DNA of 64,000 bases from Paeniglutamicibacter quisquiliarum (GTDB lineage: Bacteria; Actinomycetota; Actinomycetes; Actinomycetales; Micrococcaceae), in NCBI RefSeq assembly GCF_019084045.1, contig NZ_JAHRED010000002.1, forward strand, positions 372,001 through 436,000, written 5' to 3'. Below the pieces are notes generated by a model that was not told the origin of the DNA, ran no database searches, and saw only the letters and a program-made list of their open reading frames with translations. The position numbers and the translations under genes were made by a program. Below are positions 43,792 to 55,386 of this stretch, in pieces; the first letter of the stretch is position 1, and the number at the start of each line of letters is the position of its first letter.

Positions 43792-43874
43792 TGCGAAGGA
43801 GGGGACTTGAACCCCCACCCACTTACGTGGACTAGCACCTCAAGCTAGCGCGTCTACCATTCCGCCACCCTCGC
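43792..43874 (-). tRNA. tRNA-Leu (anticodon GAG)
   Basis: The 83-base cloverleaf reads on the minus strand from GCGAGGG to CCTTCGC plus discriminator A. The anticodon stem CTAGC/GCTAG encloses TTGAGGT, so the anticodon is GAG (codons CUC/CUU). The long variable arm (CCACGTAAGTGG) and GGTTCAAGTCC T-loop are typical of class II tRNA-Leu. CCA is not encoded. The promoter and terminator are both visible. Confidence 0.96.
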
Positions 43875-54008: not shown

Positions 54009-55091
54009 TCAATAGGAAGTCTTCATGGCCTTCCTGACCTCTTCCAAGGTTGCCTCCGCCACGGCGTTGGCGTGTTCGTTCCCCTTGCGGAGCACGCTGC
54101 GAATGATGCCCGGATCCTGCGCATAGTCCATCCGCCGTGCCCTGATCGGCGCCAGGAACTCATTCACGGCCTCGGTCACCACTGTCTTGAGGGCTCCGGA
54201 TCCCCCGTCGCCGATGTCCTCGGCGACCGCGTGGGGATCCCTGTCCAGGCACAGCGCGGCCAGCAGCACCAGGCTGGAAACCTCGGGCCGGGCCGCCGGG
54301 TCGTAGGAGATGCGCCGGATCGAATCGGTCCTTGCGCCGCGAATCAGTCGAGCGGTTTCATCGGCGTCGTCGGCTAGGGCGATGGCGTTGCCGCGGCTCT
54401 TGCTCATCTTCCCGCCATCTGTGCCCAGCAGCAGCGGGGCGGCCGACAGCAGTGCCGCGGGTTCGGGGAAGATGTCCGCCCGCGGGGAATACCGGGCGTT
54501 GAAGCGCCGCGCGATCGTGCGCGTGAGTTCGAGGTGCGGCAACTGGTCCTGGCCCACCGGCACGACGGTGGCCTTGCAAAACAGGATGTCCGCGGCCTGG
54601 TGCACCGGATAGGTGAACATCAGCCCGCTGACCGAGGACTGCCTTGAATGCGCGATCTCGTCCTTGACGGTGGGGTTCCTGCCCAGTTCCGCAACGGACA
54701 CCAGGGAGAGGAAGGGCAGGAGCAGTTGGTTCAGGGCCGTGACGGCGCTGTGCGTGAAGATCGTCGCACGGGCCGGGTCGATGCCCACGGCGAGGTAGTC
54801 AAGCACCAGGCCCTGGACCGCGGCGTCGAGGTTCTCCGCCACGTCCCGGTCCGTCAGGACCTGGTAGTCCGCGACGAGGATGAAGGACTCGACGCCGAGA
54901 TACTGCAACCGCACCCGGTTCTGCAGCGTGCCGAAGTAGTGGCCCAGGTGCAGTCTCCCCGTGGGACGGTCTCCGGTCAACACCCGGTAGCGGCCCGGGT
55001 CGGCGTGCAGTCCTTGCTCGATCGGGGATCTGCCCCCGGCGGCGGAGGTACCGACGGACGAGGTCGTGGTGGCTTGCTGGTGCTGTTGCAA
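54009..55091 (-). CDS. trpS: Tryptophanyl-tRNA synthetase, probably the inducible auxiliary type
   Basis: The 360-residue class I synthetase has the HIGH motif as HLGHYFG (residues about 47-53), DYQVLTDRD, the Trp pocket motif GQDQLPHLELTR, and KMSKS as GKMSKSRGN. It charges tRNA-Trp. TTG 55091 was chosen since AGGGAG stands six bases upstream; the frame further up (to 55163) passes through the terminator of the attenuator and is probably leader. The upstream leader codes for a short peptide with two Trp codons, so expression depends on Trp-tRNA supply. The same design is described for the indolmycin-resistant second trpS of Streptomyces coelicolor. A housekeeping copy should exist elsewhere. 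Confidence 0.9.
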   Translation of the reverse strand: MQQHQQATTTSSVGTSAAGGRSPIEQGLHADPGRYRVLTGDRPTGRLHLGHYFGTLQNRVRLQYLGVESFILVADYQVLTDRDVAENLDAAVQGLVLDYLAVGIDPARATIFTHSAVTALNQLLLPFLSLVSVAELGRNPTVKDEIAHSRQSSVSGLMFTYPVHQAADILFCKATVVPVGQDQLPHLELTRTIARRFNARYSPRADIFPEPAALLSAAPLLLGTDGGKMSKSRGNAIALADDADETARLIRGARTDSIRRISYDPAARPEVSSLVLLAALCLDRDPHAVAEDIGDGGSGALKTVVTEAVNEFLAPIRARRMDYAQDPGIIRSVLRKGNEHANAVAEATLEEVRKAMKTSY

Positions 55092-55160
55092 CTGGTGCTC
55101 CCTGGGATTGGTTCTTGTCGCCGTTCGCCCGGCCGGACACAGAAGCCCCTCCAGGGGGCA

Positions 55161-55257
55161 CAAAAATGGCCGTCCTTGCGAACGGCCTGGTGTGAATCAC
55201 GAAACGCGGCTGTTCCTAGGGGGAACGCCACCACGCAAGACTCCGTGTATTGATCAT
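55161..55257 (-). promoter_or_regulatory. Ribosome-mediated transcription attenuator of trpS
   Basis: On the minus strand, the leader peptide with Trp-Trp is followed by three competing hairpins. GTTCC/GGAAC overlaps the leader stop. Antiterminator: GAACAGCC (55208..55215) pairs with GGCCGTTC at 7 of 8 positions. Terminator: GGCCGT (55182..55187) pairs with ACGGCC (55168..55173), then ATTTTTG. Stalling at Trp codons would favour the antiterminator. TAGGAT (55264..55269) is the likely -10, placing the start at the leader ATG. Confidence 0.88.
55216..55257 (-). CDS. Leader peptide of the trpS attenuator (MINTRSLAWWRSP)
   Basis: Thirteen codons with two adjacent TGG codons at positions 9-10. 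ATG 55257 lies six bases after the putative -10 TAGGAT, so the leader is itself leaderless; the stop is TAG 55216. Its only role should be to sense charged tRNA-Trp. It was too short to appear as a normal open frame. Confidence 0.85.
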   Translation of the reverse strand: MINTRSLAWWRSP

Positions 55258-55386
55258 GGACCAATCCTAAGCCCGCGACGCGGCGGTCCCGTTCGGTGCG
55301 TGCCGATCCGGCCGGGAAGTGCCGTTGGTCGCATGCGCCGAACGGTTATCCGCCCGCCGGTGGCGGCCGGTAGACTTGATGGCGAC

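Follow-up and report, generated by a model that had tools for sequence, protein, structure and literature searches.

What controls the tryptophanyl-tRNA synthetase gene at this locus of the soil bacterium Paeniglutamicibacter quisquiliarum, and which kind of synthetase does it encode? The window, by which we mean the whole stretch of 64,000 nucleotides that was analysed, contains a trpS gene (here trpS2) whose product matches TIGR00233 with 240 bits (cut-off 177). The original prediction placed a complete Trp attenuator in front of it at 55161-55269, and these coordinates are exact, on the minus strand. The parts that it described are all in place (Table 1): a leader of 13 codons with TGG TGG, a -10 hexamer TAGGAT six bases ahead of the leader ATG, competing 1:2, 2:3 and 3:4 pairings, and a terminator with a T run. 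The leader ORF is short and has its adjacent Trp codons close to the stop codon, and an intrinsic terminator with a U run lies ahead of trpS2, its stem (55187-55168) comprising 8 pairs of which 6 are GC. No Shine-Dalgarno sequence is seen upstream of the leader ORF at 55257, and the -10 spacing predicts a transcript that begins on the A of the leader ATG or on a neighbouring base. The label 'Arthrobacter-type' in the original prediction was close: the genus is Paeniglutamicibacter, of the Micrococcaceae.

Table 1. Features of the trpS2 leader region and gene, with positions in the 64-kb window.
Feature	Position	Strand	Basis or detail
-10 hexamer TAGGAT	55264..55269	-	Sequence reading; TANNNT kept in relatives
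Leader peptide ORF MINTRSLAWWRSP and stop	55216..55257	-	13 codons, ATG at 55257, TAG 55218-55216
Adjacent regulatory TGG TGG, codons 9 and 10	55228..55233	-	Sequence reading
Strand 1 GGCGTTCC, overlaps second Trp codon	55222..55229	-	1:2 pairs, 49 sequences
Strand 2 GGAACAGCC, first G is last base of stop codon	55208..55216	-	1:2 and 2:3 pairs
Linker, 20 nt, with partial complementarity to leader codons 4-8; may form an outer helix that closes the 1:2 hairpin	55188..55207	-	
Strand 3 GGCCGTTC	55180..55187	-	2:3 and 3:4 pairs
Intrinsic terminator: strand 4 GGACGGCC (55175-55168) and T run ATTTTTG (55167-55161)	55161..55175	-	
Second GC-rich hairpin directly past the terminator	55145..55159	-	
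Shine-Dalgarno-like GGGAG of trpS	55098..55102	-	Sequence reading
trpS2, auxiliary tryptophanyl-tRNA synthetase (assigned from sequence), 360 aa, TTG start (start codon inferred)	54009..55091	-	

The 64 kb contain the arrangement of a -10 hexamer, 6 nt, a start codon, 7 codons, TGGTGG, 3 codons and TAG a single time, and 0 of 100 dinucleotide shuffles produce it. The 70-nt segment that begins with the second Trp codon and runs through the T run has a folding energy of -27.3 kcal/mol; shuffled sequences average -17.5 (sd 2.8), and 0 of 200 are as good. Folding is less marked for a 111-nt stretch (5 of 200 shuffles equally good) and unremarkable for leader and linker without the terminator (18 of 200). 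Searching the 4.4 Mb genome with a covariance model of 49 related sequences, of which the window sequence is one, gives a single match at E <= 0.1, the window locus itself (E 7.6e-18). Terminator-like sites are not rare here (3 in 2.3 kb, about 1 expected), as an ordinary intrinsic terminator next to an unregulated chance ORF would have it, but the shuffled layouts, the folding and the single covariance-model match rule out that combination, and the leader, its spacing and the three pairings are conserved; we consider such a coincidence to have practically no chance of being the explanation. A T-box riboswitch was rejected because there is no Rfam match at the gathering score at the locus. The only such match in the window is a tRNA gene (43792-43874, minus strand).

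A leader with adjacent Trp codons (WW leader) is widespread in front of related genes. In a scan of named genomes, mostly outside Micrococcaceae, it precedes 67 of the best 80 relatives listed. The parser finds 66 of these with TANNNT upstream, at 6 nt (57) or 7 nt (9), and the 67th, L084, could not be oriented by the parser and was recognised by eye. In three of the best 80 the leader is altered, through a change in one Trp codon (L045, L086) or loss of the stop codon (L105), and in ten it is absent (L030, L032, L037, L066, L083, L085, L087, L096, L097, L100), so the gene can live without its leader. The Trp codons were required in choosing the leaders of alignment A1, and their conservation inside A1 is no proof; the unconditional figure is the 67 of the best 80 listed. 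By eye, transposase-like genes precede L030 and L085, and in the Micromonospora loci L066, L087 and L096 the stretch before trpS, which has no leader, resembles the Streptomyces post-terminator region, so that regulation may have been lost cleanly there. The record of L084 bears the title Sporosarcina beigongshangi and would be a cross-phylum case; it was rejected as such, the stretch having 64.5% GC and an upstream region identical to that of L107, which is placed in Micrococcaceae, and the label is probably wrong.

Comparison within Micrococcaceae, which the original prediction had proposed, supports the attenuator. This synthetase type occurs in 23 of 395 sampled genomes of the family, with Trp codons near the leader stop at all 22 loci assessed (every one but L121 of G200) and adjacent Trp codons at 20. 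In a sample of the class the type is present in 46 of 394 genomes. At 33 of the 45 loci besides the window a WW leader is accompanied by TANNNT at a distance of 6 to 8 nt upstream, six loci have looser candidates (L133 and L137 with one Trp codon or separated Trp codons), and six have no leader, one of them (L162) near a contig end. A CATNNT-like box is found among the looser candidates at L142, L143, L151 and L161. The housekeeping trpS of the genus has no leader of such layout upstream at any of 15 loci, among which L010 offers a short upstream stretch only; a few short Trp-containing ORFs occur far upstream, with the -10 not rightly placed.

Two further arrangements were seen in passing. 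In one family, f27 (L139, L140, L141, L144, L146, L148, L153, L154, L157, L158, L160), the hairpin after leaders such as VKSLVLVWWLPS is strong but lacks a T run, and the switch there may use another kind of termination or act on translation. At L193 (1500-2300), in a genome of the class, an intact attenuator lies ahead of a trpS2 copy that carries internal deletions.

The terminator and antiterminator pairings exclude each other and are conserved over 49 sequences, aligned from 53 diverse leaders after exclusion of L108, L115, L165 and L133. Pairs are formed in 92.8% (1:2), 97.9% (2:3) and 99.1% (3:4) of the cells, and in at most 66.8%, 67.7% and 62.0% when the strands are slid by 1-3 columns. 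On our reading the 1:2 pairing of ten WWPS-like rows is shifted in register, which would explain why 10, 10 and 8 cells are unpaired at three of the pairs. Changes on both sides of a pair are found in 11 cells for 1:2 and in 14 for 2:3, each count reached by 0 of 500 shuffles; for 3:4 there is a single such cell, and 60 of 500 shuffles are as high. Pairs with changes on both sides number 3, 1 and 1 (1:2, 2:3, 3:4), with shuffles as good in 60 of 500 (1:2) and 496 of 500 (2:3), and the count of pair types is likewise no better than in shuffles (325 of 500 for 1:2, 500 of 500 for 2:3). The case is therefore one of whole-helix pairing conservation more than of many independent double changes. Strand swaps among 27 clusters barely part own from foreign strands, 46% (1:2) and 38% (2:3) of the swaps being equally good. 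In 32 of 118 unique regions the T run of the terminator is short, with no more than 2 T among the 9 nt that follow the hairpin. In clade B, a separate group in the tree of the enzyme described below, the strands have other letters in identical order and with identical logic (GGCTG / CAGCC / GGGCTG / CAGCCC).

The possible outer helix between leader and linker is also favoured among relatives. Over 35 clusters the duplex of a leader with its own linker has a mean of -11.1 kcal/mol, compared with -7.3 for swapped linkers (p 4e-8); shuffled-letter linkers average -6.9 (p 3e-11), and segments taken from elsewhere in the locus -9.3 (p 0.002). The own duplex is in the best tenth of shuffles in 25 of the 35 clusters and of swaps in 19; in the window alone the helix is not significant (21% of shuffles equally good). 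It prolongs the 1:2 hairpin across much of the leader ORF, and the start codon is also paired in 14 of 109 regions.

We consider it very probable that the locus is a classical ribosome-mediated transcription attenuator, which couples the auxiliary TrpRS gene to charged tRNA-Trp. The possible pairings, their conservation and the type of gene come from in silico analysis, and stalling, switching and induction would follow the model of established attenuators. As the spacing suggests, the RNA would begin at or next to the leader AUG and the ribosome would load on the 5' end without a Shine-Dalgarno sequence. When Trp-tRNA is ample the ribosome would pass WW and reach the stop codon that abuts strand 2, covering strand 2, so that 3:4 forms and transcription terminates. 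When Trp-tRNA is short, through Trp starvation or a blocked housekeeping TrpRS, a ribosome stalled on WW would cover strand 1, and the resulting 2:3 pairing would give antitermination and expression of trpS2. In an untranslated leader the 1:2 hairpin would form, making termination the default. The 2:3 pairing of the window is weak, at -9.3 kcal/mol and with an A.C mismatch, and is likewise weak in the three other Paeniglutamicibacter copies measured (L004, L006 and L007, -8.4 to -9.0 kcal/mol); the median over 59 WWRS relatives is -15.2 kcal/mol. When the window stretch is folded minus strand 1, 3:4 is still preferred, so with a weak 2:3 pairing antitermination would have to win kinetically.

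An arrest peptide could work an otherwise similar hairpin switch, the ribosome being stalled by its nascent peptide, for instance when a drug sits in the ribosome, rather than by a shortage of Trp-tRNA. Such a peptide might account for the frequent WWRS or WWPS ending in clade A and for a near-constant leader length, 12 or 13 aa in 87 of 98 unique leaders, but strand 1 consists of the RS and PS codons, which are thereby constrained as RNA. Moreover, clade B leaders end in WWWLR, WWWLS, WWRLR and similar with the geometry unchanged, and the downstream gene encodes a Trp-tRNA synthetase. We hold an arrest peptide to be very improbable, and continue with the attenuator that responds to charged tRNA-Trp.

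The spacing of the start codon was studied in these 98 unique leaders, which were picked by TGGTGG and a nearby stop with the promoter ignored. Before the pick, 17 unoriented loci (mostly housekeeping, but also L009, L025, L084, L107 and L121) and the window repeats L002 and L003 were dropped; among the 148 loci kept, 106 had one candidate, 15 were ambiguous (mostly WWW leaders) and were set aside, and 27, of which 4 are housekeeping, lacked a candidate. In 80 of the 98 leaders TANNNT is 6 nt ahead of the start codon, in 15 it is 7 nt ahead and in one 8 nt; over offsets of 40-99 nt upstream the background averages 0.07 per offset. Three of the 98 leaders are preceded by a Shine-Dalgarno-like core; by a looser measure such a core is present before 71 of the 98 possible trpS starts. 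Because TANNNT is found at 6 or 7 nt in 95 of the 98, leaderless initiation, as originally predicted, looks conserved across the relatives. This is in line with the leaderless Trp leaders reported for S. lividans in passages of PMC8079986.

It is conceivable, although unlikely, that leaderless loading is itself a working part of this class-wide design, in which the folded leader would close over the 5' end and block reloading after the ribosome's departure, giving a single-pass switch with one ribosome per transcript. This idea draws on the start codon being 6 or 7 nt from the -10 in nearly all relatives, whatever the peptide, and on the first leader codons, which can pair with the linker.

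The original prediction also took the gene for an auxiliary synthetase and suggested looking for a second trpS. The genome does contain one on another contig, a copy of the housekeeping kind which scores above the window copy with TIGR00233 (349 bits). The solved chains nearest to the window enzyme are 1yi8 (252 bits) and 2a4m (248 bits, named TrpRS II), both from Deinococcus radiodurans, and the top chains for the housekeeping copy are different ones (7el8, 6dfu). At one position, in 166 extracted proteins with repeats included, auxiliary enzymes have Gln (147) and housekeeping enzymes have His (16); the remaining 3 are unparsed by the pattern yet show DYQ. In an alignment TrpRS II (2a4m, 1yi8) has Gln at the equivalent position, as the window enzyme does. 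This position is presumably His43 of the Geobacillus enzyme, which matters for indolmycin. The window enzyme is separate from housekeeping TrpRS and groups with second copies from Streptomyces and relatives, in a set that contains no characterised Streptomyces TrpRS1 by name. By its tree grouping, nearest chains and Gln residue the window gene is an auxiliary TrpRS (TrpRS1 / TrpRS II type), and drug tolerance, which the original prediction implied, is a candidate property suggested by homology and one residue.

The same switch, and an attenuator all the same, might instead control an enzyme that serves under Trp shortage, a high-affinity or stress copy of the sort TrpRS II is described to be, and not a drug-tolerant one. 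The closest solved chains (1yi8 and 2a4m) suit such a role, and the neighbours of trpS2, a PspA-like protein and an SDR-like protein, suggest neither resistance nor antibiotic synthesis. Against this, the Streptomyces TrpRS1 or second TrpRS (S. griseus) is called indolmycin-resistant in passages of two reviews (PMC9437257, PMC6804068), and the auxiliary copies parsed have Gln replacing His. We give the stress role a little under an even chance, and refer to the gene below simply as the attenuated auxiliary TrpRS.

In a tree of 114 proteins the window gene groups with three other Micrococcaceae rows (100/97), and these rows fall within a clade of 69 rows (100/98) made up of Streptomyces, Streptosporangiaceae and relatives. 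Their closest neighbour inside this clade is unsure, the join with S. rimosus having 81/45. Clade B is a separate 13-row group (100/99) of 12 Micrococcaceae and one row of another family. The window rows and clade B are apart in the tree, which indicates two lineages in Micrococcaceae, and a genome of the same genus (G004) carries the clade B type. Across the genus either type is found in 7 of 15 genomes, and in 6 of the 7 carriers trpS2 is at most about 1.2 kb from an SDR-like gene. Three genomes (G011, G012 and G013) have the PspA-like gene 0.5-0.7 kb from the SDR-like one, without trpS2; G012 and G013 retain there short stretches like the 3' end of trpS2 (window 54044-54156), so loss has probably occurred. 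The other six genomes of the genus have neither arrangement within the 1.5 kb examined. Ten plasmid records carry the gene. Among the four plasmids inspected the leader is present in those of Streptomyces, Microbacterium and Rhodococcus, and the Collinsella plasmid has no leader in the 400 nt scanned. The attenuator was probably acquired together with the gene from a Streptomyces-like lineage.

A covariance-model scan of 197 genomes of the class found 22 with a match at E <= 0.001. L197, L198, L199, L202, L203, L206 (match at about 1500) and likely L201 have the leaderless layout before a gene that by eye is of the anthranilate synthase or chorismate-binding kind, so the design is not confined to trpS. 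The leaders before the chorismate-binding-like genes read MLANLTWWPAS, MTASTCSWWPAS, MYATALGTWWRAS and alike, with a -10 box 6 or 7 nt ahead; the protein of L199, when scanned, falls under the curated cut-offs. A TrpRS of the housekeeping kind (SDLHALT, with the His kept; TIGR00233 295 bits) is preceded at L196 (1500-1650) by the Trp leader VRMICCFLSWWRP, whose spacing is unchanged, and the attenuator thus accompanies two TrpRS kinds. The matches at L200, L204, L205, L207 and L208 look like chance.

Taken together, the results suggest that an attenuated auxiliary TrpRS known from Streptomyces has reached Micrococcaceae along with its regulator. The 98 unique leaders form a large natural alignment of one leaderless attenuator, in which one can compare the parts played by the spacing of the start codon, the number of Trp codons and the strength of the strands, and natural variants with one Trp codon changed, the stop lost, or the leader replaced or absent are ready-made comparisons.

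The attenuator of the auxiliary trpRS1 of S. coelicolor was reportedly described by Vecchione and Sello in 2010, and a 2015 study by Korolev et al., which reportedly treats classical attenuators of Actinobacteria that depend on Trp, may already include Micrococcaceae. Micrococcaceae cases were not found in the literature searched, the most relevant papers lying outside that search. Published Trp attenuators before biosynthetic genes share adjacent Trp codons, a GC-rich terminator with a U run and complementary triples of the gGCC-rGCy-GGCC type with the window; in contrast to those systems, trpE of this genome has no Trp leader, with no Trp-containing short ORF in the 500 nt scanned upstream. 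Attenuated trpS is in print for Streptomyces, the genus that the original prediction named: passages of a 2005 study predict attenuated trpS and leuS in Streptomyces, including S. avermitilis trpS2 (PMC1262725). The Streptomyces trpS attenuators have a Trp leader peptide, an antiterminator/terminator switch and a TrpRS gene in common with the window, whereas the host of the window belongs to Micrococcaceae. The TrpL2 leader of S. lividans TK24, MMTRTCTQLWRAA (passages of PMC8079986), resembles the window leader in being a leaderless Trp leader of 13 aa ahead of trpS; it has one Trp codon and, according to that paper, no uridine-enriched stretch, whereas two Trp codons and a T run are present at the window locus. 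The anatomy of the attenuator is thus of a kind known from Streptomyces, and what is new is its presence, with strong comparative support, in another host family.
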